DNA of 21,714 nt from a virus, in the IMG/VR virus record IMGVR_UViG_3300037088_000382, positions 1 to 21,714 of that record. One strand, 5' to 3'. Below the pieces are notes generated by a model that made no database searches, had not been told where the DNA came from, and saw nothing but the letters and a program-made list of their open reading frames with translations. Numbering within the stretch: the stretch's first letter is position 1; the number at the start of each line of letters is the position of its first letter. Both the position numbers and the translations under genes were made by a program. Shown here in pieces: positions 1,382 through 21,714 of the stretch.

Positions 1382-2137
1382 ATGAAGATAGCCTACATGT
1401 CGGATATCCATCTTGAATTTCATAGAGATGGTGGAGTAGCTTTTACAGATGAAATAATCGCCAATACGCCAGAAGTGGACCTTGTGGTCCTAGCTGGCGA
1501 TATAGGCGTGTTGAAGACGGATTCGGGGCAGATTCAGGTACTTCTGGAGGGACTGTCTAAGAAGGCTAAGAAAGTATTTTATGTGCCAGGTAACCATGAG
1601 TTTTATCAGGGTGAGTATAGGGCTGGGAAAGGCACCTTACAAGACCTTGAATATAACACACCAGAGAATGTAGTCGTTGGCTCAGGTTGTTTTACAGACT
1701 TCTTCCTTGACGGCTATTATATTTGCGGCGGTACTTTGTGGTTCCCAGATTTATATCCGCCGCAACATGAAAAAGAGATGTTGAATGACTTTAACTACAT
1801 TAAGCATTTAGAGCCTGAGATCTATAGGGAGAATGCTTATTGTGTAGCTCAGATAGAGAAAGGCTGTATGCAATTCCCTGGCAAGAGTATTGTTGTAACC
1901 CATCATGCTCCATCGTATCAGAGTGTTGATCCTAAGTTTGCTGGAAGTCCTATTAATAAGTTCTTTGCTAATAATCTAGATGCTATGATTGAAGATGTGA
2001 AACCTTTGGTGATTGTTTCCGGTCACCTCCATGACGCAGTTGATTATGAACTTTTTGATACTAGGATTACTTCTAACCCAGCAGGATACCGTGGTGAACT
2101 TGATATTAATTGGAAGCCAAAGGTGATTGAGGTATGA
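1382..2137 (+). CDS. Calcineurin-like metallophosphoesterase
   Basis: This 251-aa protein carries the full set of binuclear metallophosphoesterase motifs in order: D8-x-H10 (SDIHLE), GD at 39-40 (VLAGD), GNHE with N71 and H72, THH with H174 and H175, and GHLH with H215 and H217. The family hydrolyses phosphomonoesters or phosphodiesters, including cyclic nucleotides and RNA 2',3'-cyclic ends in some members. There is no signal peptide, so it should act in the cytoplasm. GAGGG a few nt upstream gives a good ribosome site, and the stop overlaps the next gene by ATGA. Its place between two RNA ligases suggests an RNA end-healing role, as with the phosphoesterase domain of bacterial Pnkp; that is inference. 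A protein phosphatase or nucleotide phosphodiesterase is also possible. Confidence 0.9.
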   Translation: MKIAYMSDIHLEFHRDGGVAFTDEIIANTPEVDLVVLAGDIGVLKTDSGQIQVLLEGLSKKAKKVFYVPGNHEFYQGEYRAGKGTLQDLEYNTPENVVVGSGCFTDFFLDGYYICGGTLWFPDLYPPQHEKEMLNDFNYIKHLEPEIYRENAYCVAQIEKGCMQFPGKSIVVTHHAPSYQSVDPKFAGSPINKFFANNLDAMIEDVKPLVIVSGHLHDAVDYELFDTRITSNPAGYRGELDINWKPKVIEV

Positions 2138-3261
2138 AATCATTAAAGGTACAGGTTTGGCTTAGAAACTATCTGTGGGGAAACGGAGACGTAACAGCTA
2201 CTCTAGAAAAGTTCAAGTCTTCCTTTGGTATCAACTCCAAGCAGCACTCCATTCACCCCAACCTGTTTGGTTTCAAATACAATCAACTCGAATGCGACTT
2301 TAACAACGAGATCGTTTGTGAGTGTCGCGGGCTTATCCTTGATGCTGCTGATAATTGGCAGGTTGTGGCTATGCCGTTTTACAAGTTTTTTAACTCAGTG
2401 GAAATAAAAGCGGCCAAGCTTGATTGGGCCACCACTAGGGTTCAGGAAAAATTAGACGGCTCTTGTATCCAGATTTATTACTATAAAGGCTGGAATATAT
2501 CAACTATGGGCTGTCCTGATGGCCTAAATATCGTTGGTGACACCGGCATTACCTTTAGAGACTTGGCCTTAAGCTGTATTGAAAAGCAAAAGCTAGATCT
2601 AACTGAGTGGTCAAGATACTACACCTATATCTTTGAACTAACCTCGCCTCTAAATAGGGTCGTAGTCGACCACAAAGAGGCGAAACTAACCCTTATTGGG
2701 ATTAGGAACAACGAGACACTTAAAGAAGTTCCACTGAATGACATTGCTGAAACGATATGGATGTTCGGTCCTGGTCAGCCACCAATTGTCCAGGAACACC
2801 CTCTATCAAGCCTAGACGATTGCCTTAAGGCTTCAGAGAAGCTAAACCCACTGGAGCATGAGGGGTATGTAGCCGTTGACGCTAACTTCAATCGAGTTAA
2901 AATCAAGTCGCCAGCTTATGTAGCTATTCACCACATCAAAGACAGTTGCTCTTTGGCCAAGATGGCCATAGTTATTAAAAACGGCGAATACGAGGAGTTC
3001 CTTATTGCTCTACAGTCCTACCCGTTGGTGTTGGAGCAGTTTAACAAGCTGGTAGAGCGGTATAAGGATGTTATTAAAATCTGTACCGAGACTTATGATA
3101 AGATCAAGGATATTAGTAATCAGAAGGAATTTGCTTTACTTGCATGTCAAGCCGAGTATAGTACCGTATTGTTCAGCATGCGTAAGTCGGGCAAGTCAGC
3201 ACAGCAGATGTTGCATGATACGCTGGAAAATACATTTTTAAGGATAATGGGGGTAAAGTGA
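2134..3261 (+). CDS. T4 Rnl1-type RNA ligase (tRNA repair type)
   Basis: The 375-aa product matches the length of T4 RNA ligase 1 (374 aa), the enzyme that rejoins tRNAs cut in the anticodon loop by host defence nucleases. Visible nucleotidyltransferase features are ECRGLILD at 63-70 upstream of the active site, motif I EKLDGS with the nucleophile K106, FELTSPLNRVVV at about 167-178 (III/IIIa, E168), EGYVAV at 243-248 (IV) and VKIK with K256 and K258 (V). About 115 residues follow motif V, equivalent in size to the Rnl1-specific C-terminal domain. The ATG overlaps the phosphoesterase stop (ATGA), and its own TGA overlaps the GTG of the nuclease gene, so translation is probably coupled. The family call is strong; the tRNA substrate is inferred from the family. 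Confidence 0.93.
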   Translation: MKSLKVQVWLRNYLWGNGDVTATLEKFKSSFGINSKQHSIHPNLFGFKYNQLECDFNNEIVCECRGLILDAADNWQVVAMPFYKFFNSVEIKAAKLDWATTRVQEKLDGSCIQIYYYKGWNISTMGCPDGLNIVGDTGITFRDLALSCIEKQKLDLTEWSRYYTYIFELTSPLNRVVVDHKEAKLTLIGIRNNETLKEVPLNDIAETIWMFGPGQPPIVQEHPLSSLDDCLKASEKLNPLEHEGYVAVDANFNRVKIKSPAYVAIHHIKDSCSLAKMAIVIKNGEYEEFLIALQSYPLVLEQFNKLVERYKDVIKICTETYDKIKDISNQKEFALLACQAEYSTVLFSMRKSGKSAQQMLHDTLENTFLRIMGVK

Positions 3262-9149: not shown

Positions 9150-9575
9150 CTAAGTTGGCGATTCCGTATTGTTACCATAAAGCAAGCCCTTAAAGGCAAT
9201 AGTTCCGGTAACATAGCCCTTAGTAGGGATATTCCAGGTTTGCCTAATAACAGAATTTTTCTTGCTTTCGAAGATGATCGTGTCAGTAATTCTATCCACA
9301 ATCAGAATGGAGAAATATTTGCCTCTAGTGGCTGCTTGCCAGGTTGGCATCATGCCTGCCCCTTCAATACCCCCGTCGTGGGCCTGTCGGTAGATCGTCA
9401 TCATCCCGGAGCAGGCAAGGGGGCCGGGTATAAGCTCCTGAGGCTCTAGGGTGTCGATGCCGTGGACTTCCTTCTGGGGGCTGTCTTCTGTGTGGCTGAA
9501 ATTGGAAACGCCGGCAAACGGCTTCCCATTGAGGTACATGACGGTTCTTGCGCCAACCAACAAATTAAGTGACAT
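9150..9575 (-). CDS. Tail-tube-like structural protein (141 aa)
   Basis: A 141-aa protein with a layout of beta strands typical of the tail-tube fold: an N-terminal strand and hairpin (VMYLNGKPFAGVSNFSHTED), an acidic loop with KEVHGIDTLEPQEL, a GMMTIYR strand, then DRITDTIIFES and a closing GYVTGTIAFKGLLYG strand. This resembles small tail-tube or tube-initiator proteins of contractile phages, but no exact family is recognised. The ATG at 9575 is preferred over a GTG at 9587, because the GTGAGG around that GTG serves as the ribosome binding site with 6-nt spacing. The start overlaps the end of the preceding gene by 11 nt. Being between baseplate genes, it may be a hub or tube-baseplate connector rather than the main tube subunit. 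Confidence 0.6.
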   Translation of the reverse strand: MSLNLLVGARTVMYLNGKPFAGVSNFSHTEDSPQKEVHGIDTLEPQELIPGPLACSGMMTIYRQAHDGGIEGAGMMPTWQAATRGKYFSILIVDRITDTIIFESKKNSVIRQTWNIPTKGYVTGTIAFKGLLYGNNTESPT

Positions 9576-12500
9576 TGCGCGCCTCACTTAGGAAAGTGTC
9601 AAGCTCATCCGGCCCAAAAACCTCAATAATGTCTGAAAGCTTGTAGCTACCGCTCATTGGCAATTCTTCGTTACCCAACCCTCTATCGCCTGGATATCTA
9701 ACGTTTATTAGTAAGTCTATCCCAGCCGCAGAGATATCGGTAATGTACTGCTTTGCGGCAGCTAAGCCCGCGTTAGAGGCAGTTACGTAAAAAGCCCCCG
9801 GCTGGGTGTTAATATCTGGGTTATACGCAGCAACCTGAGATACTACGGATAACACAATATTGTCGGTAGATAGTAGCTCTACAGGGAAGTTATAGGACGG
9901 GTCAGGAATAAGAACCGTATAGATAGATGTTGGATTGTCCCTGACGAAATACTTAAATGGCCCAACCTGGTTTTTAAAACCAAAATTGGCAACAAGATAG
10001 CCTTCAATGGGAAGATTAGTAACATCTCCATCTACTTGGATTGGAGGGCACCCCTTTCCTTGGGGAATAGTTGTTTTTAGGGAAAGTGTATTCCCACTCA
10101 GCCCAAACGGCTGATTTTTATCATAAATGTAAGGGCCAAGGACACTTTGTTGAATGGCAGATAAAGAAGTAAAGACGGCTTGAAAGTTGGTATCCGACTT
10201 GGTATAGCCAGGTTGGTCTGTAACGAAAGAAGCTGTTCCAGGAGAACCGGCAGCTTTTACTATTCCGTTGACTCCACCACAGCGTCCATTTTCTGTGTAG
10301 CACTGAATAGCAGCAGCTTGAGCGTTATTATGTTCTGTCGTTCCGGAAAGATAAGAGCCACCGGGGCGAATAATGATAGGCTTGTCAGTATTAGCAAAAG
10401 CTACCGTACTTCCTGTCCTAAACGAGACAGCGGGCAAAGAAGTAACAGAAGTCTTCCAAGTCATTGTTTCAAGATCTAGATACTCAATTCTTTTTGACTG
10501 GGATCCTCCACAGACATATACTCGATTTAGAACAGGCTCATAATGGCAGCTGCAGTAGCTATGGGGATCCTGAGTGTCAGGAATAGGACTCCAGTATCCC
10601 GTGTAAGGATCGTAGATTTCGCAAGACTTCAGTTCGTAATTTAGCTGGTTGCCTGTAGGATCAATAGGTTGACTATGGAGATTTCCAATACCACCAACGA
10701 CTAAAATTCTATTCCCTGGAAGCGTGGTGTGTCCAAAGGCAAACCTTGCATAGGTCATACCCCCGGTCTGTACACAAGTGTAGCTACCGCTATTATACTT
10801 TATGAGTTCACAAGAACTTAGGGGCGTCCCCATATTAGTAAGGGTAGAGGAGTTTGAATTGTTGGGAAGCCTACCTCCAATTACTAATGCATTTCCCCCG
10901 CCCACATCCGCCAGCTTGGCGTTTGAGCGGGCGTAATTGAGAGAAATTCCATAAGTGTTTCCCCATTGACCAAGTTGATTGCCAACAGCGTAGCTAGGAT
11001 CCCAGAAGTTGATATTAGCAGTTGCTACGCCTGTATTATCCACACCACCGGCCGTTACGGCCTTATTTGTGGGGGAAGATAGCCAAACCAAACCAGCGTC
11101 CGCCAAGGGGGTACTCGGTTGCGTTCCTGTGATTTCTGTTAAAGTGTTTGCAGTAGCTGAGTATAGAAAAGTCCTTTGTTCGGCGTAGCCGGACCCAGTA
11201 GCGTGAGTAGGTCCACCAGGATACCCCCCCACCACCAATATCTTGTTCCAGAACCTAGGATAGTCAATTAGGGCAAGACTTGAGCCTAAACCGCTGATAT
11301 TGCTATTGGAAGTAGTTGCCCAGGTATAGGTATGTGAAACGACTTGATTGGTAACCGTCTGTCCAGTAACTGTATATTTTGAAACTGACTTGATGTCCGT
11401 GCTAGTGTCAATATTTCTACCGCCCAAAACAATGTTGACGTTGTTTAGGTCTGTGATACACTTAGCTAGAATTCCGGTATAGCCACCAACAGCGGTTGCG
11501 CAGCTAAAAAGGGAGGCTGCAGAGGTACCTGAAGAAGCGGCTGTAGAAATGAGATCGGTAGCATCTAGCAATTTGGGCAGGAATCCGGAAATAATGCCGA
11601 ATTGATTTAAGGTAGGTGTTGAACCAGAAAGAGAGCTGCTGCCAGTAGGAAGTCTTGTAATTGAAGAAAGGTTGTACTCAACAGGATTAGATAGATAAGC
11701 CCCGTTAGAGCTATCTCTTACTACGATTTCGGTATTGACAGGTAAGGATACTCGGGATTGACCAAGCTTATTGCTCAATAAAGCATAATTGGAACTATCG
11801 TAGATTTGCTTAGTAGTTGGCCGCCAGATGCTGAGGCTATTAGAACTAATCGGGGAAACGGTTTCGGTTACAGCTACTTTATTATTAATCGTAACTTTTC
11901 TTACGCCACTGATAGTTGTAATACTCTCAATAGGGAAGCTGCCCCTGTTGTTAAGAGAGAACTCAGAACCAAGGATATTGATATAGTCGCCGGCTACTAC
12001 ATTCTGAAAAATAGATAGGACCTTGGTGCTAGCTGTAGAAAAAGTGATTGAAGCTTTGTTTAGCGGTAAGTCCGTAATGGTAACTTGAGTAGAAGGACTT
12101 AGGGTGTTGTCAATTGAATTGTACAGTAAGGCATCAAACTGTAGAGCTGACTGTGCGCTTCCACTCGTAACTTCAATAGACGATCTTAGTCCTAGAGTTC
12201 CAGAGAAGATCCTTACCTTTGTTTCATTTGTTTCTAGGTCTTGATATTCTACAGCAAAGGCATTACTCTTGTACTGAACAAAGGCTTTGTTAATAGCTGC
12301 GCAGACTTCAGTAGCGGTAGCCATTAGGGGGTTGACAAAGTCTGTCCAGAGAAACACAACAGGGACTGCTAAGTGTCCGTCAACTGTGATATTAAGAGTA
12401 GCTTTGTCAAACAGAGTAAACGGCTCATATAAGGCTGAGCTGATATTTGCCCTTACGGCCTGTGGACCGTAGATAATCTCTAGAAGGTCTAGGTTAGCAT

Positions 12501-13164
12501 TCTGAGTAAGCTTGTCGTTAACAATAGTAATAGCAAGAGTTCTAAAGGCATCGTCAACAAGTCCTAAGGCTGTGGGTTTAGCAATACCGTTATTGGAAGC
12601 TCGGATAGAAAGATACTTGCCGCTAGCGGACGAAACATAGAATTGGTCAAATAATTTGTTAACAGTGTTAACAACAGCACTGTTTCCAGTATTGAGTCCT
12701 TCAATCAATCCTTCCCAGTTGGGCTTGCCTAAAAAGGCAGGGTTGAAGAATTTTCTTACTAAATTGGAGTCGTTAGACAGGCCGGGAATATCCTGATTAA
12801 TAGCAACAACATTAAAAATATAGGCCGGAGTTTCAGGCAGCAAAGCAGATGTAATTGAACTTACTATTTTTGCTTGAGTAAAAGACAGCTTCCATTGTCC
12901 ATAAGTCAGGTCTCGATCTAGGTAGATATCAATAGCTTTAGGAGAAGCAGTAGTCGCCGTAGCTAGATTAATTTGGACCGTATTTGGGCCAGTAAGGGAG
13001 TAGCTCGTCCCATCGGTGGCCTTGTTAGCTCCTAATACCGGAGGATGTGTGTACCATACCCGTAAAGAGCTGGTGCTTAGTAGCTCTACTTTAGCAACAA
13101 GGAAATCTGTCCCAATTCCTGGAACCCCAGCGCTAAACGAGCCGTCTTTGATGGAAAGGAGCAT
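9565..13164 (-). CDS. Large baseplate protein with internal kelch-like propeller (1199 aa)
   Basis: The outer parts look like one baseplate protein. Residues about 140-240 contain FFNPAFLGKPNWEGLIEGL, YVSSASGKYLSIRA and DDAFRTLAITIVNDK; the C-terminus contains YITDISAAGIDLL, VRYPGDRGLGNEELP and VFGPDELDTFL. Between them lie a bacteria-style beta module (ATEVCAAINKAF...LRSSIEVTSGSAQ, about 278-345), a GDYINILGSEF / NNRGSFPIESI module (about 390-430) and a kelch-like propeller at about 570-955 with seven GG-strand motifs. The outer segments probably build the wedge while the propeller projects. The gene follows the J-like gene by 19 nt and overlaps the next by 11 nt. The start ATG has only a weak ribosome site. 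Assignment to baseplate rests on neighbours and motif style; exact family equivalents are not named. Confidence 0.8.
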   Translation of the reverse strand: MLLSIKDGSFSAGVPGIGTDFLVAKVELLSTSSLRVWYTHPPVLGANKATDGTSYSLTGPNTVQINLATATTASPKAIDIYLDRDLTYGQWKLSFTQAKIVSSITSALLPETPAYIFNVVAINQDIPGLSNDSNLVRKFFNPAFLGKPNWEGLIEGLNTGNSAVVNTVNKLFDQFYVSSASGKYLSIRASNNGIAKPTALGLVDDAFRTLAITIVNDKLTQNANLDLLEIIYGPQAVRANISSALYEPFTLFDKATLNITVDGHLAVPVVFLWTDFVNPLMATATEVCAAINKAFVQYKSNAFAVEYQDLETNETKVRIFSGTLGLRSSIEVTSGSAQSALQFDALLYNSIDNTLSPSTQVTITDLPLNKASITFSTASTKVLSIFQNVVAGDYINILGSEFSLNNRGSFPIESITTISGVRKVTINNKVAVTETVSPISSNSLSIWRPTTKQIYDSSNYALLSNKLGQSRVSLPVNTEIVVRDSSNGAYLSNPVEYNLSSITRLPTGSSSLSGSTPTLNQFGIISGFLPKLLDATDLISTAASSGTSAASLFSCATAVGGYTGILAKCITDLNNVNIVLGGRNIDTSTDIKSVSKYTVTGQTVTNQVVSHTYTWATTSNSNISGLGSSLALIDYPRFWNKILVVGGYPGGPTHATGSGYAEQRTFLYSATANTLTEITGTQPSTPLADAGLVWLSSPTNKAVTAGGVDNTGVATANINFWDPSYAVGNQLGQWGNTYGISLNYARSNAKLADVGGGNALVIGGRLPNNSNSSTLTNMGTPLSSCELIKYNSGSYTCVQTGGMTYARFAFGHTTLPGNRILVVGGIGNLHSQPIDPTGNQLNYELKSCEIYDPYTGYWSPIPDTQDPHSYCSCHYEPVLNRVYVCGGSQSKRIEYLDLETMTWKTSVTSLPAVSFRTGSTVAFANTDKPIIIRPGGSYLSGTTEHNNAQAAAIQCYTENGRCGGVNGIVKAAGSPGTASFVTDQPGYTKSDTNFQAVFTSLSAIQQSVLGPYIYDKNQPFGLSGNTLSLKTTIPQGKGCPPIQVDGDVTNLPIEGYLVANFGFKNQVGPFKYFVRDNPTSIYTVLIPDPSYNFPVELLSTDNIVLSVVSQVAAYNPDINTQPGAFYVTASNAGLAAAKQYITDISAAGIDLLINVRYPGDRGLGNEELPMSGSYKLSDIIEVFGPDELDTFLSEARNVT
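10300..11457 (-). other. Kelch-like beta-propeller domain in the 1199-aa protein
   Basis: Seven regularly spaced strands ending in a GG pair lie at about residues 581 (NIVLGGRN), 646 (KILVVGGYPG), 705 (AVTAGGVD), 763 (ALVIGGRLP), 824 (RILVVGGIGN), 886 (RVYVCGGSQS) and 935 (PIIIRPGGSYL). Several are followed after a loop by Tyr/Trp positions typical of kelch, such as SCEIYDPYTGYWSPIP and IEYLDLETMTWK. Spacing of about 50-65 residues gives a seven-bladed propeller. Kelch propellers commonly bind proteins or glycans; the ligand here is unknown. Confidence 0.8.
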
Positions 13165-13183: not shown

Positions 13184-16100
13184 CTAGACGCCTAGGAAGA
13201 TGACGCTAATATCTTCCTGCGGGTTTAAGACCATCCCCTTCTCCGACGCTGATAGGATCACCTGGTCTCCCTCAAACAGAGGTGTGACCGTATCCACGCC
13301 GTCTACCTTACTGGCGGCTGACACCATGTCAGATACAGAGATGTTCTCTCCGTGAGGACTACTATTAATAACTCCAGCAATAATGGACTTAACCCTGTCG
13401 GCAAGTTCTTGGCTCGGGTTTCCGACAGATCGTATGGCAAAAGCTCTTTGGATCCTCTTGATGACCGGACCGTCAACCAAAACCGAAGCTCCATTTGCTA
13501 CGAATCCAGGATAGGTTTGGGTGTCCGAAGTCCCATAGAGAACCTTATTCACTTCACCAACTAATCCTGTATGATATTTATATGCATCAATTCCTAGGTT
13601 TAGATCATTTGGAAAGTTGGGCTTGCTGGTTGATTCAATAATAGAACCAGCAGAGATTGAAATAGCTGCAGATTCTGGAGGAACTGATTGGTAACCGACA
13701 CCCATATCACACAGCTTAATGTCAGTTAAGCCACTATTGGCCTGATTGGGGTTAATCCCCAAAATCTTCTTGTAGAACACACCAGGATTTGCCTCAATAA
13801 CCTGAACACTAAAGATGTTCATTAGTTTTGATCCGGCAAACTTGGTGGCCGTTTTGTTTTGGATAGAGACTTTGAAGCAAGGATTTATAAACTGAGCACC
13901 ACCAGAAAGAGAACCCACAGAGTCAATCGTCCAAGATCCTTTGTTCCCTGCTCCAAACCTGTCGTCTGTAACAACAATGGTATCTCCAGGAAGAAGAGAG
14001 CCCGAGTCTAAGATGTTGAAGTCGCAAACGGACTTTTCTTCTGCTACAGTTGGATTCTCAATCCAAATGACAGAGCCATTATGTGTAACGTTGACAATTT
14101 TAAATACGCCTTTATTGGCGTTGTGGACTAGTGGCAAGTTGGTAGTAATAAGTCCTCCCGAAAAAGACCGGGTTGTGATATAGATGTACTGCCCACAGTT
14201 TCTAAGATCGGGATTAAGGAAGTAAGGAGAGTTAAGCTTAATTACAGCAAAGTTGCCCGCTTTTTCAAAGCTGGCTGTAGTCGTCTTGTGTTGGGCAAAC
14301 GCTGTAATGAATGGCAGGTTGCCGCCTGATATCGTCCAGGTTCCATCTTCGGCAACAGAGGTTACTGTAATTCCAGCAATGCTATTTGAATAGGGTTTTT
14401 GTATATTGACAGTATTGACGATCTTAACAATGTCCCCGCCCCTGAAACCATCCGCGCCAGAAGTATTGACCGAAACAATAAACGCTGGCCCACCTTCATA
14501 AGGAACCAACGCCGAGCCAACAACCGCTGCTGTAGCTTGGTTAGCTCCAACACCAGAAACCTGGATTGCTGATTGACTTCCGGCGTTTTTGGAGGTGATT
14601 TGAATTGAGGTGCCACTATTGATAGCTTCAATTAGAGCTTGGCTCCATAAACCCGTGATACACGGGGTATTGAGCCATCTTACTACATCAGAAGCGTATG
14701 CTGGCAATAGATAGATTTCTTCATTCTGCCAATCGCTATTGGTTGCTAGATTAGACGCCGTCGGTCGCTTTAGTACAACCTGATGGTCCACAGAAATAGA
14801 GCCAGGAAGGGCGGTGCTTAATACCGCATTGTAGCCGTCTACTAACTGGGTTCCGCTATCCCAAGCGGTATTGGTGTCCCAATCAGCCGCATTAATAACC
14901 GTACTTCCGCCACTAAGAAGTGTGGCGGTAATCGGACAAGCTGATTTAGCAGCGGTAGCTAGAGCATTGACAGAAGCTACAATGCTTGATTCTGTAGCTG
15001 TTGAGTTTCTAAAAACAGAAACAGTAGCTGGGGTTGAAGTTAGGCTGCCAGCACCGCTAGTGTCTCCTAAGATTTTACCTTTGAGATATTGATTACTGGA
15101 ACCAATAGCTGTAATTTTGATCGGATTGTTATTAAAAAGAGTAGAATATTGAGGATCACCAATAACAGCAATGTCCCCAGTCGAAATAGTGGGATCGAAG
15201 CCAACTTTGGCAATAGCTGCAGGATCTAGACTGATGGTGCCGGGATTAGTAGTAAGAGAATATGTGGCGGTTCCATCATCTAATGATAGTGGAGCAAGAT
15301 AGATGTCTTGAAGCATCGTACTTGTATTTAAGCTGCCAACATTTACAATAATGGTTTGCCCACTTAATAGGGTAGTCGGTGTAGGGGTAATTGCATCATA
15401 TCTAATAACGTCCCCAATACTAAAGACGTTAACAAGGTGAGAGTCGGGGTACTGGATGCGGAGGGCTGTTTGATCCCCAATTGTAGTTCTTTCTGCCTGA
15501 GTAACCTGGAATCCTGTTAGTAGATGGATTTCCTTGATGTTGTTCGAAAGTGGATACTCCTGTATGTTTAGTCGGGTGGTAGGAGTTATTGTGTTATTGG
15601 TATAGGCAGCCCCAGAAGGTAAGTTGATATTAATAAAGGTTTTGTCTGCGTGGGAGTATGTTGGCGGGTTCTTGAGCCAGGCATGATCCAAAGTAACCGA
15701 AAGCTGTTGCGCCGGGGCGGTAGGATACAAGTACCTTACAATGTAATTCTCACCCTCCGCTCCAGGTCGGTAGAATCGATAGAGAATATTTCCGACCTTA
15801 TTGCGGGCCTTCATTAAAACATCGAAGTTGTTAAATGAATAGCCAACACCGAACTTCTTTGCTAGTGTGTCATGGCTGTTTTCAGCATCGTTAATGGTAA
15901 TTTGAGAGCCGTAAGTTGAGTTAGCAGCTGCAACTTTACGACTCATTGGAATAGAAAAGAATCCCGAAGTGGTGTTCTGATCTACAACGACAGACAGTTT
16001 ATCAGTAGGACTAAACTTAAAGGGTAGCCCACAATAGAACGGCTGATTTGGGCTTAAAGCCACAGAACTACTAATCCCTAAAGCTGTAGAGTCTGAGAAG

Positions 16101-19100
16101 GCTGGGTATGAACCTGGCTGGGTAATTGAACCAACCTTGGCCCAAGAGCCAATTTGAGCGATTTCATTCTTAAAATTGCCCCACTCGTAGCCACGAACCG
16201 ATGTAGACTGTGTAGCTCCGGGCCAGTCACAGATTTTTAGGTCTGAATCATAGCTTGGACGGCTTTCCAGGAAGTTCTTTCTTGTTAGTCCACAAAGGGT
16301 GCCATTAAGAGGCGGATGTTCGTTTTTGAATAGAAGTATGGACGATGCTTTCGTACCGTCAGCTCCATTTCCGCTGCGGGTGCTTTCAACGTTAAAGGGA
16401 ACTCTAATCGTGCTCCCTTCAATTGACCCGACAGAGAAAAGAGAGAAATCTGCCGGCATATCCAGTTCGCTTCTAGAAGCCTTTACAGTAGCGGACAGTG
16501 AATTCCCAGATTGCTTGAGAGCTTCCGTTTCAAAAGTGGCTACGGTAGGCCCAAGCTGAATAAGGTCGCCTTCATTGTCGTTTGTGTTGAGCCTGATCTT
16601 TGAGGTTTGATATACCCTTGCTGCAGCTCCTTTTACGATTAAGGCGTCACTGAGAGACTGAGGAGAATAAGTATTGGCTGATATGGTCAGCTTTGTGGTA
16701 GGGGCAGAGGTGTTGTAAATCGCCCATCCCTGAATGCCAGTGTACGTACCAGTGACAGGGCAGAGGTATGTAGAGGCTAGTCCGCTACCATCAATGGTTT
16801 CAACTGTAGCTCCAATAACGGCTTCGCCACCTCCAAACCAACCGCTGTCTTCTTGTCCACCAAAGACAAAGATGTTATTACTAATAACAGCGCTAGCAAA
16901 CATCGATTTACAACCAGAAATGGTTGAAGACGATGTAATCTTAGCCCACTTGCTAGTTCCGCTATTGTAGTAAACGTGACAGAACGTTCTTTCTAATCCG
17001 CCAGTTGCAGAATTAGACAATTCAGCAAACGGAAGAATAAGTGTTCCCCCGGCCGTTTTAACCAATTGGTTTGATCGGCCGAAGTAAAGGAACTGAATAA
17101 AAGTAGATGGGGCAGGGGTAGCTTCTGTAATAGAAGTGCCGTTGTAAACAACCTCAGTTGCAGAAAAACCGGGAGTTGTAGAGATAGGTCCCTGTGAAGT
17201 CCAAGCGTTCCCAGAAATACTATAGGTGTAGTACCACTGATCTGCAACGGCTAATATAGTATTGGAATTAAGAACCTCAGCTACATAGTTCCTAAACCTA
17301 GTAACACTTCCAGTGACGGGAACGCTTGCAAGTGCAGACCAAGTATGAGAAGACGGACTGTATTTGTTGCAAGTAAGAACAACAGATCCTGAACTTTCAT
17401 CAGTAGCTGCTGTTACGGGGTTGATGTTGAAATCTGAGAACCCGCCAACCATCATAACGTCATTAGATGGGAGATTGATAGAAGTATGAGAAAACCGATT
17501 ATTGGTAAATGTAACTGGGAAAACTAGTGTGTTAGACGCCGTTGCGTACTCTACAGAGTTATTTAGAACAACAGTAGAGATTCCGCCGCAGATAAGAACG
17601 TTTCCTGTAGATAGCAACGTAGCTGTATGTAGGTAAACAGCTTGAGATAGTGTCGGTCCTGCAGTCCATGTATTTAAAGATGGATCGTATAGTTCAGTAG
17701 AGGCTAGAGCAACGCCATCAACTCCACAACCACCTACTACTAAAATCTTACCATTGCCTAAAGCTGTTGCAGTATGGCCGTAACGGGCTACGCCCATTGG
17801 AGCGGCCGAAGTCCAAGCTCCGGTAGTAGAATTGTAGATTTCAGTAGAAGCTAAAGCTCCGGTATTTTGAGAGCATAAACCACCGCAAACCAGTATATTG
17901 CTGGTACTCGGCAATACTGTGGCCGTAGGCCGTTTCCTTGCCGATTTGCCAGCGGGAAATTCAATCACTACTTGGTTTAATGCTGGCTTATCAATAATTT
18001 TCCAATTACCAACTAAAGCCGCTGGCAAGCTATTGTTGGCTGTCTGGTACAAAAGGAGATTCTGGCCAATTTCAACATTACTATCAAAATTGAAACTGTT
18101 CTGTACCAACAGATGAATACAGGAAGGGGTTACCTTGTAAATAGATACTGTTAACGCTGTAACATCGCCCTTACCACTATCAACAACAGTCGTGTTCCCG
18201 TCCGTAACAAACCACAAAGGTTGATCAGAGGCTACCGTAAGGGAAGAGAAGCTACTAGACTCCAAGAACGCTTTAGTCCAAAGAGAGCCTAAAGTTAACC
18301 TGTCATTAACGGCTAACGGATGAGTAAGAATGATAGTGCCGGTAGCTCTATCAAGAGTGTAGTTAAAAAACTCCACCGGCCTATCATTCAAAAAGAGAAG
18401 AAGCGTTTGGGATTTTGTGGTAGGGAACCCCAAGATATCCTTGGTTGAACCCCCAGTAACAAAAACGGCTCCGAGTTCTTCTTTAGGGAAGAGGGTTACT
18501 CTGGTAGTATTAGAAGATACCCTAGCGCCGAAATTTAAAGCAGTGTTTGAGTTGATAGACGAAACAACATCATAAGCCGATGCGGCTTGAGGAGAGTTAA
18601 AGATAGAGGTGTCAAATGTGTGGGTTTGTGGATCGGCAAAACCAACAGAGACCGATAACGTTGCTCCGTTGGGAATAGTGTAAGGGGCCGCATTAACTGA
18701 TTCAACGGAAGCCTTTACGATAGGAGACTGAATAGTCTTAAAGTCCGTCTCACCGCCAGTGGCGAGCGCGCGGAGGACTTCATAACCTACACCTTCATAG
18801 ATTGGCTCGTAGCCGTTACCATCATCGATATAGAGGACTGAGGGTTTACCGAAACGTCTTAGGAGAGAAGACGATAGAACGGTTTTTTGTTCGTCAGGGG
18901 AGGTAACGTTAAGGGCGGCTGTTTTAATAGCAAGGTCAGTACCTTTGGTCTTGCTATTCCTGATGTTCTTAATTCTGGTTCTGTAATCCTTAGCGCTTTC
19001 AGAATCTCGGCCATCAGTTACCCTATTGGGATTAGTAACCGCAGCTCCCGTAAATGGCGGTGAGCCGCCAAAATCGGAGATAGCTCCCTCAGGTACATTA

Positions 19101-19819
19101 CCAATAACTCCAGGTGTAAGGCAGATTACACTAATACCATTTAATTCGGTCTCGCCATCGGCAAGAACTCCACCTACTAACACTGAATATTGAACAGGCG
19201 TGGATAGAGCGCCAGCAGGGGTAGATACGATTTGGCCAGCATTGACGTTACGATCACCGCCCTGGCCAATGACAACTTCTTCACCTTGGTTATGGAATGC
19301 TGCAGTAGGGGTAGAAAGGGTAATTGTCCAATAATTGCCACTATCTACCTTACTCGTATAAACAAGAGGACCCTCCTGTTGGGCCGTTCCTCGGCCAATA
19401 TAAAGAACGCCAGAAGCTGTGGCTGATAAGAATGTAGTTGTCTTGTCTACATAGAGAATCGTAGACCCAACAATAGGAGCGGGCTGACCGTGGTATAAAT
19501 TCGCTGCGATGCGACTGTAACGGGTGTCAGTAATAGTAACAATTGTGCTGGCCGCTATTGGCCCGAATTGGGGGATTTTTTCATCTGCACCAATTCGTTG
19601 TAGGCCAATTCCTTCAATATTGTCAACGTCCTTAGACTGCAGGGCCTGAAAAACGCCATAGGTAGACCTTGAAAGGCTTTGGGATACAGACTCTAGGATT
19701 GATAAGATCGGGCTGCCAACTTTGAAGCGTCTGATCCCAATTCTAGAAGTAACGCTATCTAGCATTTCCCCAAGGATCTGGGGCTGTGACAGCGGCGTAG
19801 GAATGTCTTGTTGAGCCAT
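13184..19819 (-). CDS. Giant baseplate J-like protein with internal kelch-like propeller (2211 aa)
   Basis: Residues 1-330 look like a Baseplate_J (Mu gp47 / P2 gpJ / T4 gp6-related) protein: ILSILESVSQSLSR near 42-55, then LTPGVIGNVPEG at about 233-244 and the signature VTDGRDSESAKDYRTRIKN at about 267-285. The J-type C-terminus is at about 2130-2211 (ELADRVKSIIAGVINSSPHG, then SVSDMVSAASKVDGVDTV). The J core is thus split by roughly 1,800 residues, holding a kelch-like propeller (about 625-1015) and many repeated beta modules. Ordinary J proteins are a few hundred residues long. J proteins form the baseplate wedge ring that links sheath, hub and fibres. The start ATG has no clear Shine-Dalgarno site. 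It is first in the minus-strand tail operon, 35 nt from a divergent gene. Confidence 0.9.
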   Translation of the reverse strand: MAQQDIPTPLSQPQILGEMLDSVTSRIGIRRFKVGSPILSILESVSQSLSRSTYGVFQALQSKDVDNIEGIGLQRIGADEKIPQFGPIAASTIVTITDTRYSRIAANLYHGQPAPIVGSTILYVDKTTTFLSATASGVLYIGRGTAQQEGPLVYTSKVDSGNYWTITLSTPTAAFHNQGEEVVIGQGGDRNVNAGQIVSTPAGALSTPVQYSVLVGGVLADGETELNGISVICLTPGVIGNVPEGAISDFGGSPPFTGAAVTNPNRVTDGRDSESAKDYRTRIKNIRNSKTKGTDLAIKTAALNVTSPDEQKTVLSSSLLRRFGKPSVLYIDDGNGYEPIYEGVGYEVLRALATGGETDFKTIQSPIVKASVESVNAAPYTIPNGATLSVSVGFADPQTHTFDTSIFNSPQAASAYDVVSSINSNTALNFGARVSSNTTRVTLFPKEELGAVFVTGGSTKDILGFPTTKSQTLLLFLNDRPVEFFNYTLDRATGTIILTHPLAVNDRLTLGSLWTKAFLESSSFSSLTVASDQPLWFVTDGNTTVVDSGKGDVTALTVSIYKVTPSCIHLLVQNSFNFDSNVEIGQNLLLYQTANNSLPAALVGNWKIIDKPALNQVVIEFPAGKSARKRPTATVLPSTSNILVCGGLCSQNTGALASTEIYNSTTGAWTSAAPMGVARYGHTATALGNGKILVVGGCGVDGVALASTELYDPSLNTWTAGPTLSQAVYLHTATLLSTGNVLICGGISTVVLNNSVEYATASNTLVFPVTFTNNRFSHTSINLPSNDVMMVGGFSDFNINPVTAATDESSGSVVLTCNKYSPSSHTWSALASVPVTGSVTRFRNYVAEVLNSNTILAVADQWYYTYSISGNAWTSQGPISTTPGFSATEVVYNGTSITEATPAPSTFIQFLYFGRSNQLVKTAGGTLILPFAELSNSATGGLERTFCHVYYNSGTSKWAKITSSSTISGCKSMFASAVISNNIFVFGGQEDSGWFGGGEAVIGATVETIDGSGLASTYLCPVTGTYTGIQGWAIYNTSAPTTKLTISANTYSPQSLSDALIVKGAAARVYQTSKIRLNTNDNEGDLIQLGPTVATFETEALKQSGNSLSATVKASRSELDMPADFSLFSVGSIEGSTIRVPFNVESTRSGNGADGTKASSILLFKNEHPPLNGTLCGLTRKNFLESRPSYDSDLKICDWPGATQSTSVRGYEWGNFKNEIAQIGSWAKVGSITQPGSYPAFSDSTALGISSSVALSPNQPFYCGLPFKFSPTDKLSVVVDQNTTSGFFSIPMSRKVAAANSTYGSQITINDAENSHDTLAKKFGVGYSFNNFDVLMKARNKVGNILYRFYRPGAEGENYIVRYLYPTAPAQQLSVTLDHAWLKNPPTYSHADKTFININLPSGAAYTNNTITPTTRLNIQEYPLSNNIKEIHLLTGFQVTQAERTTIGDQTALRIQYPDSHLVNVFSIGDVIRYDAITPTPTTLLSGQTIIVNVGSLNTSTMLQDIYLAPLSLDDGTATYSLTTNPGTISLDPAAIAKVGFDPTISTGDIAVIGDPQYSTLFNNNPIKITAIGSSNQYLKGKILGDTSGAGSLTSTPATVSVFRNSTATESSIVASVNALATAAKSACPITATLLSGGSTVINAADWDTNTAWDSGTQLVDGYNAVLSTALPGSISVDHQVVLKRPTASNLATNSDWQNEEIYLLPAYASDVVRWLNTPCITGLWSQALIEAINSGTSIQITSKNAGSQSAIQVSGVGANQATAAVVGSALVPYEGGPAFIVSVNTSGADGFRGGDIVKIVNTVNIQKPYSNSIAGITVTSVAEDGTWTISGGNLPFITAFAQHKTTTASFEKAGNFAVIKLNSPYFLNPDLRNCGQYIYITTRSFSGGLITTNLPLVHNANKGVFKIVNVTHNGSVIWIENPTVAEEKSVCDFNILDSGSLLPGDTIVVTDDRFGAGNKGSWTIDSVGSLSGGAQFINPCFKVSIQNKTATKFAGSKLMNIFSVQVIEANPGVFYKKILGINPNQANSGLTDIKLCDMGVGYQSVPPESAAISISAGSIIESTSKPNFPNDLNLGIDAYKYHTGLVGEVNKVLYGTSDTQTYPGFVANGASVLVDGPVIKRIQRAFAIRSVGNPSQELADRVKSIIAGVINSSPHGENISVSDMVSAASKVDGVDTVTPLFEGDQVILSASEKGMVLNPQEDISVIFLGV
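16775..17947 (-). other. Kelch-like beta-propeller domain in the baseplate J-like protein
   Basis: Kelch strands are at about residues 645 (NILVCGGLCS), 696 (KILVVGGCGV), 744 (NVLICGGIS), 792 (DVMMVGGFSD), 859 (TILAVADQWYY, degenerate), 923 (LVKTAGGTLIL, degenerate) and 986 (NIFVFGGQED). The first three blades are textbook bacterial kelch, with ARYGHTATALGNGKILVVGG, then TELYDPSLNTWTAG. The last blades have drifted. Seven blades is the simplest reading. Confidence 0.85.
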
Positions 19820-20569: not shown

Positions 20570-21714
20570 ATGCACACCCTAAGTTCTACAGATACAATGT
20601 TTATTCAATTGGCAAATGCTAGAGTTTCAAGCGATTGTCATTGGCGCATTTCATATTGGGATGCAATACTGGCAACTTCCGCCTTTGCAGTAGAAGGTAG
20701 TGTTGGGGGTAACACCAATGGGGTTACGCCAGTAGAATTGCTGACTTCTCCCGCCACAGGGAATGTTCGCCATCCTCGGGCCTTTACTATGGTCAACTCC
20801 GACTCTGTGACCATTACTGCCATGATTGTCATTGGCGGATTAGTCTATCAGGCGATCTTACGAAGTGGCGACGTTCTACAGATGACAGAGAAAGAGGGGT
20901 GGTTTGTTACCGACGCTACTGGGTCTGGGAAAATGGCTCTCGCCAGCGCTAAATGGGGAGATCTTGAAGGTTCCATTTCTGACCAGACCGATCTTTCTTC
21001 CGCATTGGCCAGCCGAGTTTTTTCAAACGCAGCCATCTTCGCGTCTGGCTCAACAAACAAAATTGTTCAGTATGATGCTAAGGGGCTTGTCCTTAGTGGC
21101 ACTGACGCTACAACAGCTAATATTCCTGACACTACTGATAAAAGATACATAACTGACGCTCAAAGAACTGTTGTTAGCAATATTAGCGGATCCAATACTG
21201 GAGATCAAACGCTTGTAGGATTAGGTGGAGTTTCAACTTCAAGAACGGTAGCCGGGCACGCCTTAAGTTCAGATGTAACACTTACAACGGCAGATGTTTC
21301 TGATTCAACAGATAAGCGATATGTAACCGACGCCCAACGAACAGTTATTGGCAATACTAGTGGAACCAATACCGGAGACGAGACTAGCACAACAATCAAG
21401 TCTAAGTTGGGGATTTCCACTCTGTCAGGCTCCAATACTGGAGACGAGACAGCCATAACCATTGAATCGAAGCTAGGTGTCTCATCTGGCAACACAACGG
21501 CTTTGTCAAATCTCAGCGGAACTAACACTGGAGATGAAACCAATACAACAATCAAGTCCAAGCTAGGAATCGCTACTCTTTCGGGCTCTAACACTGGAGA
21601 CCAGACACTATCCGGGCTCGGCGGCGTAGCCGCCAATTCGGCAATTGCAGGAGGTACCAAGACAAAGGTCTCGTACGACACGAAGGGGCTCATTACTAGT
21701 GGCGCAGACGCCAC
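20570..21714 (+). CDS. Repeat-rich tail fibre protein (5' part, runs off the window)
   Basis: The ATG at 20570 follows AGAGGA with 5-nt spacing, three nt after the previous stop, and the frame stays open to the window end (381 codons visible). Residues 1-125 form a unique N-terminal domain (for example FAVEGSVGGNTNGVTPVELL), probably the virion-attachment part. From about residue 163 there are fibre repeats: KIVQYDAKGLVLSGTDAT, TTDKRYITDAQRTVVSN and the motif SG(S/T)NTGD(Q/E)T, typical of long phage tail fibres. There are five NTGD motifs. The C-terminus, which would hold the receptor-binding tip or an intramolecular chaperone, is not in the window. Fibre identity is well supported; the host receptor is unknown. 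Confidence 0.88.
   Translation, partial: MHTLSSTDTMFIQLANARVSSDCHWRISYWDAILATSAFAVEGSVGGNTNGVTPVELLTSPATGNVRHPRAFTMVNSDSVTITAMIVIGGLVYQAILRSGDVLQMTEKEGWFVTDATGSGKMALASAKWGDLEGSISDQTDLSSALASRVFSNAAIFASGSTNKIVQYDAKGLVLSGTDATTANIPDTTDKRYITDAQRTVVSNISGSNTGDQTLVGLGGVSTSRTVAGHALSSDVTLTTADVSDSTDKRYVTDAQRTVIGNTSGTNTGDETSTTIKSKLGISTLSGSNTGDETAITIESKLGVSSGNTTALSNLSGTNTGDETNTTIKSKLGIATLSGSNTGDQTLSGLGGVAANSAIAGGTKTKVSYDTKGLITSGADA
21059..21714 (+). repeat. Nested coding repeats in the tail fibre (66/156/174/603-nt periods)
   Basis: Copies of SG(S/T)NTGD(Q/E)T start at 21185, 21359, 21425, 21515 and 21581. Spacings of 66 and 156 nt show a 22-codon unit (with TTIKSKLGI) nested in a 52-codon unit. The DKRY(I/V)TDAQRTV block recurs 174 nt apart. 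The block KxVxYDxKGLxxSGxDAT at 21059 recurs 603 nt later (201 codons) at the window end, so a large super-repeat is starting again. All periods are multiples of three. DNA identity between copies is partial, so they are old or under drift. Confidence 0.8.

Follow-up and report, generated by a model that had tools for sequence, protein, structure and literature searches.

A split baseplate J protein with a giant insertion and an optional kelch propeller in a family of mostly uncultured phages

Contractile tails have J among their core baseplate proteins, and it is usually a small one. The closest cultured relative of the system described here is Myxococcus phage Mx1, whose tail is reported to be contractile; the publication on this phage is a genome announcement and is silent on its J and kelch proteins (PMC10720576). 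Wedge proteins have been connected with host binding in other phages. The wedge protein Gp119 of Bacillus phage Vp4 (831 aa) contains carbohydrate-binding modules and decorates host cells, whereas its homologue Gp177 from Deep-Blue (341 aa) is without those modules and does not decorate cells (PMC11406892). A mutation in a wedge protein of phage K8 confers the use of a second receptor (PMC9887876). The jumbo phage CBB encodes the kelch proteins CBB_550, CBB_552, and CBB_554, of which CBB_552 is found in the virion (PMC5259590). Beta-propellers also occur in the receptor-binding or peripheral tail proteins phi11 gp45, PRD1 P2, and phiKZ gp131C (PMC6115969).

In this report, we describe a J gene within a viral fragment of 21.7 kb, the whole of which is referred to as the window. 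The features are listed below by window coordinates, with the basis of each assignment in parentheses.

13184..19819 (-): giant Baseplate_J gene, 2,211 aa (ORF; Pfam Baseplate_J; identical ORF in L002)
18818..19819 (-): N-terminal part of the J core, residues 1-334 (hhalign to canonical J; PDB profile matches)
19259..19528 (-): small extra module within the N-terminal J part, residues about 98-187 (absent from canonical J in the alignment)
13568..18817 (-): insertion of about 1,750 residues, 335-2084 (hhalign boundaries; AF2 linker 335-343; helix 2085-2095)
18380..18784 (-): residues 346-480, duplicated beta module bearing the ATA.EV motif and shared with the downstream protein family (hhalign, equivalent segment of L026, E 5e-12)
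16760..17941 (-): kelch beta-propeller cassette, residues 627-1020 (Pfam kelch families; Foldseek Keap1; same site in 18/66 relatives)
13643..16744 (-): remaining shared scaffold, residues 1026-2059 (family alignment; AF2 pLDDT 77.7; BFVD match to an uncultured J-like protein)
13187..13567 (-): C-terminal part of the J core, residues 2085-2211 (hhalign E 2e-7; Foldseek 5ces)
9565..13164 (-): downstream partner gene, 1,199 aa
10570..11073 (-): kelch repeats in the downstream gene, residues about 698-865 (Pfam Kelch_6 E 3e-8; blade profile)

The J gene is one uninterrupted frame of 2,211 codons with an ATG start, and the same protein is encoded at 100% identity in a second contig, IMGVR_UViG_3300037090_000053 (L002). 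A Pfam search with the 2,211-aa protein returned Baseplate_J and kelch repeats and nothing further of note. The Baseplate_J family (PF04865) matched residues 178-306 only, which correspond to profile positions 24-146 of 255 (E 3.7e-10; 40 bits against a cut-off of 21.1); this is the N-terminal half of the J profile. The C-terminal end of the protein gave no Pfam match. Both ends were compared by hhalign with a canonical J profile constructed from eleven ordinary J proteins from phage records, including P2 J and Mu gp47. The N-terminal end (residues 3-345) was found to align with canonical columns 12-198 (E 1e-14) and the C-terminal end (residues 2060-2211) with columns 256-350 (E 2e-7). Placed side by side, the two ends cover 333 of the 363 canonical columns (E 8e-18, score 138). 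When reversed profiles or four pieces from the middle of the protein were used instead, there was no match to canonical J (scores of 18.3 or less). The N-terminal end also matched J proteins of known structure in PDB profile searches, including phiCD508 gp65 and ORF62, and the N-terminal end of the Mx1 J protein likewise matched solved phage J proteins. In six relatives, Pfam Baseplate_J positions of about 190-254 match the far end of the same ORF.

AlphaFold2 models were built on contiguous stretches only, residues 1-1120 and 1020-2211. The best PDB match found by Foldseek for the second model (pLDDT 77.7) was 5ces, the C-terminal domain of the R-pyocin J protein (probability 1.00, TMt 0.63), followed by chains from the baseplates of phage 7-7-1 and pyocin R2. 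The E-values of 0.02-0.07, at probabilities of 0.98-1.00, are modest because the J domain is a small fraction of a large query. The proposal that the C-terminal end is unrelated to J was rejected on the basis of the hhalign and Foldseek results, the clean controls, and the Pfam matches in the six relatives. Judging from the profiles and the separate models, the two ends presumably pack into one fold.

An earlier note on this DNA had proposed that the J core is split, and the alignment of the spliced ends to the canonical profile bears this out. The statement in the same note that known J proteins are a few hundred residues long agrees with the 302-377 residues of the canonical set. The further claim, that J signatures are confined to the two ends and that all else is extra, holds for both ends but has to be amended for the N-terminal part, which itself contains the extra module of approximately 90 residues at 98-187. 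In the downstream protein, the C-terminal region has a counterpart to part of this module (E 1e-6). Baseplate_J is not a continuous domain of a few hundred residues here, being interrupted by about 1,750 residues; continuity is typical of the family rather than strictly defining.

The insertion lies between a J beta strand and the following helix, ahead of the C-terminal domain. Its start follows the strand SVLYIDDG, at a linker (335-343) that has low confidence in the model of residues 1-1120, and its end precedes a helix at 2085-2095 in the model of residues 1020-2211. The insertion is about four times the size of J itself. The earlier note had put it at about 1,800 residues. The giant insertion is real, but approximately 1,500 of its residues make up a scaffold common to a large family that includes Mx1, and this scaffold is retained in every complete member. 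The scaffold is partly repetitive: in the L026 member, a beta module known from the downstream protein occupies residues 341-480 (E 5e-12), with partial matches at 481-610 (E 2e-7) and at 1400-1560 (E 1e-5). The L026 pair 610-760 and 760-900 also scored high and was left out, because the alignment is rich in gaps and the two segments abut. The window protein does not have about 117 residues that are found at 480-600 in other members. Confident matches of the C-terminal model (1020-2211) to known folds are confined to the J domain; the second piece of BFVD entry A0A6J5L250 matches this model at 29% identity. The J proteins of L035, L068, and L075 contain other large cassettes at the equivalent of residues 1850-1945, and that of L068 has a further cassette of several hundred residues at the equivalent of 1404-1600. 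None of these gave a Pfam match.

The relatives were collected from viral contigs with a pattern search seeded with the window protein and the Mx1 J protein. At least 97 viral contigs (80 kept) were found to encode relatives, in addition to the cultured phage Mx1. After removal of redundancy, 66 proteins have the two J ends in a single ORF, at lengths of 1,847-2,622 residues; the length used for the L003 protein exceeds the annotated figure as the result of an upstream alternative start. Eighteen of the 66 contain the propeller, and the architecture that the earlier note suggested looking for in metagenomic phage genomes is present there. In all 16 long records (132-182 kb, the complete Mx1 genome included), the giant protein is the only Baseplate_J found, and a second, ordinary J elsewhere in the genome was not found in any of them. 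The group consists of widespread, large, mostly uncultured phages. Among bacterial genomes, relatives turned up on just three contigs, all in metagenome-assembled genomes (Rhodospirillaceae, Elusimicrobia, and Saccharibacteria bins); these may be misbinned phage contigs and no host is claimed from them. A weak gp25-like ORF adjoins J in two records, an arrangement that resembles the W-J-I order of P2. Weak gp25-like matches were also seen in ORFs of more than 800 aa (L003 6406-8826 and relatives in G006, G009, G010, and G011). The sequence matches suggest that a second wedge protein may be enlarged too.

The earlier note had placed a seven-blade kelch propeller at about residues 625-1015. The position is right. 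Kelch_4 gives the best Pfam match (E 5.8e-18), with the strongest signal at about residues 630-800, and the scores of several further kelch families exceed their cut-offs. The AF2 model is of high confidence across most of residues 620-880 and matches Keap1 (1zgk) with a TMt of 0.70 and an rmsd of 5.0 in Foldseek. The number of blades is less firm. DSSP divides the strands of the modeled propeller into seven groups of about four, whereas with a blade profile the window protein gave four strong blades and its relatives gave six or seven; seven blades are therefore likely in the window propeller.

The length of the protein at the site of residues 600-1032 is bimodal among the 66 members, with 34-45 residues in 48 of them and 392-446 residues in the other 18. 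The propeller is an optional cassette at one fixed site of the scaffold. Three changes are needed for the cassette on a tree of the J ends, which is compatible with a single origin, and 17 of the 18 J propellers form one supported clade. The J propeller was probably gained once. Most propellers of the downstream gene, including those from the same phages, group apart from the J propellers; a few, including that of Mx1, fall weakly on the J side. A recent copy of the J propeller from the downstream gene of the same phage is unsupported, since the two sets form separate groups. The L060 J protein has a kelch insertion at another site, residues 1568-1881. Conservation of the propeller was below that of the J core in 153 of 153 pairs and below that of the rest of the insertion in 93% of pairs, where the pairs are related and non-independent and the margin over other segments of the insertion is small. 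The propeller is the most divergent segment, yet it is inherited within a single clade.

Kelch repeats are found in the downstream gene of all 18 phages that carry the J propeller. Another 14 phages have kelch repeats in the downstream gene and none in J; some loci stop before the downstream gene, so that the absence of kelch repeats there is uncertain. Minimal relatives of the downstream protein are about 534 aa in length and are without the propeller. When the downstream gene was searched against viral contigs, only the same virus was returned, and a comparison with solved structures gave no useful match. Identification of the downstream protein with gpI/Mu gp48 was considered and rejected, since hhalign gave no match to the single sequences of P2 I and Mu gp48; the only link is the position beside J. 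The downstream gene is distributed over two or three ORFs in L006, L007, L008, L009, L010, L020, and L031, sometimes with unrelated genes between. Genes resembling pectate-lyase or beta-helix tailspikes are located between J and the downstream kelch part in L017 (16208-18919) and L031 (8402-10489). The downstream gene is followed in the window by a gene of about 140-150 aa (9150-9587, minus strand), which has no Pfam match; it is also present in Mx1, and ORFs of similar size occur in most relatives. A divergent tail-fibre-like gene with many SGTNTGDET/GDQT repeats lies at 20570-21712 (plus strand) in the window and at 3-5483 in L002, where it reaches 1,827 aa, is still open, and has no Pfam match. 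At 277-1209 and 2134-3261 (plus strand) are two RNA ligase genes with a calcineurin-like phosphoesterase between them. For the second ligase gene, the match is to phrog_562, the T4 gp63-type RNA ligase and tail fibre attachment catalyst family.

Sequence and structural models together show the split J core, the scaffold common to the family, the optional nature of the propeller, and the standing of the giant protein as the only J found. From the identity of the J ends, a place in the wedge ring is very likely. We infer assembly into the ring, outward projection, and host binding as follows. The protein would be the wedge-ring J of a contractile-tail phage, enlarged in the loop between the J core and the C-terminal domain. 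The two J ends would fold together and anchor the protein in the baseplate ring, and the insertion would project from the ring as a chain of mostly beta domains. An old scaffold may have grown partly by copying a module that is also present in the neighbouring gene, and the kelch propeller would later have been added at a fixed point of the scaffold in one part of the family. The propeller would touch the host surface, and many copies near the cell would add to the binding by fibres and spikes. We assign a probability of about 55% to this reading as a whole. The earlier note had likewise inferred that surface domains would emerge from the wedge ring and make the baseplate a host-binding organ. 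The pectate-lyase-like spike genes that adjoin J in some relatives were counted in favor of host contact. Contact with the host surface is plausible and is the likeliest role of the propeller; it is favored by the faster divergence of the propeller and by the precedents from the wedge proteins of Vp4 and K8 (PMC11406892, PMC9887876). It is doubtful that the reading extends further, to a wedge ring that is the main organ of host recognition, with the principal receptor-binding propellers on J and its partner, and with a host range that evolves through gain, loss, and diversification of cassettes at a few fixed points of the J scaffold.

The main rival to host binding is that the propeller docks or braces inside the baseplate, holding tail fibres, spikes, or the downstream propeller protein without contact with the host. 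Kelch propellers commonly make protein-protein contacts, and docking would therefore be an equally natural role. The kelch repeats downstream in 18 of 18 J-propeller phages would suit a paired docking, and the spike and fibre genes beside J also count in its favor; moreover, the stable and apparently single-origin J propeller is unlike the often-swapped tips of receptor-binding proteins. However, the propeller is more divergent than the core and most of the scaffold, and the 14 phages with a propeller in the downstream gene only show that pairing is not required. We consider docking to be a serious possibility that falls short of an even chance.

Two other explanations have less in their favor. 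The insertion could serve chiefly as structural mass, making the baseplate larger or stiffer, with the propeller as a neutral addition. Every complete member retains the roughly 1,500 scaffold residues, and the lack of confident known-fold matches for the C-terminal model outside of the J domain would agree with such a role. However, J proteins that have diverged deeply still keep the propeller, and L060 shows that J has two different sites for kelch cassettes, which makes this explanation improbable. Finally, the ORF could be an artefact, either unrelated genes fused together or a chimera of the assembly. The J of the nearest relative, L004, is in fact found as two overlapping ORFs. The giant ORF is nevertheless real: both J ends are kept in one ORF by the 66 non-redundant relatives, one of them from a sequenced cultured phage, and the identical ORF in L002 together with 17 other relatives of the same architecture excludes chance or an assembly artefact. 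We have rejected this explanation and leave it a negligible weight. In L004 (3-6570) the two ORFs are in different frames, with the switch at about residue 1020, where the propeller ends; this could be a sequencing error or a real split.

A giant J or a kelch propeller in J was not described in the literature searched, from which subscription papers were mostly out of reach; within that literature, the view that no such family has been described stands. Giant J-like sequences are already present, unremarked, in public databases (Mx1 and BFVD A0A6J5L250). The fold is ordinary and central and the insertion is extraordinary. When the only J found carries an insertion several-fold larger than itself, with optional cassettes at fixed sites, the wedge ring can serve to mount extra domains. 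Should the propellers bind hosts, host range would be determined directly by the baseplate ring. The cultured phage Mx1, together with laboratory strains of Myxococcus xanthus, provides a system in which part of this reading is testable.

Relative to P2 J, Mu gp47, pyocin R J (PA0618), and phiCD508 gp65, the ends of the window J align in order to the whole of the canonical profile. The C-terminal domain of an ordinary J has a fold like that of the window protein, but an ordinary J is without the insertion of about 1,750 residues ahead of this domain. Vp4 Gp119 is similar to the window J as a wedge protein with extra modules, which in Gp119 are host-binding; it differs in that the modules are carbohydrate-binding rather than kelch, in being a relative of A511 gp105, and in being much smaller. 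CBB also has kelch propellers in a large phage, but these are described as kelch-domain proteins of unknown role and not as belonging to J. The propellers of phi11 gp45, PRD1 P2, and phiKZ gp131C are likewise beta-propellers of phage tail proteins, but not kelch insertions in a wedge J. The nearest counterpart is Mx1, where a "baseplate protein J-like protein" (WNM70274.1) is followed by a "kelch repeat protein" (WNM70275.1). The gene order is the same as in the window: J, the kelch/partner gene, a gene of about 140 aa, a gene of about 660-695 aa, and later an endolysin. The Mx1 J (1,925 aa as annotated) is without a propeller, and the propeller of Mx1 is in the downstream gene only, whereas the window J has one. 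The ends of the Mx1 J are 42% and 30% identical to those of the window protein, and the giant scaffold is present in both.
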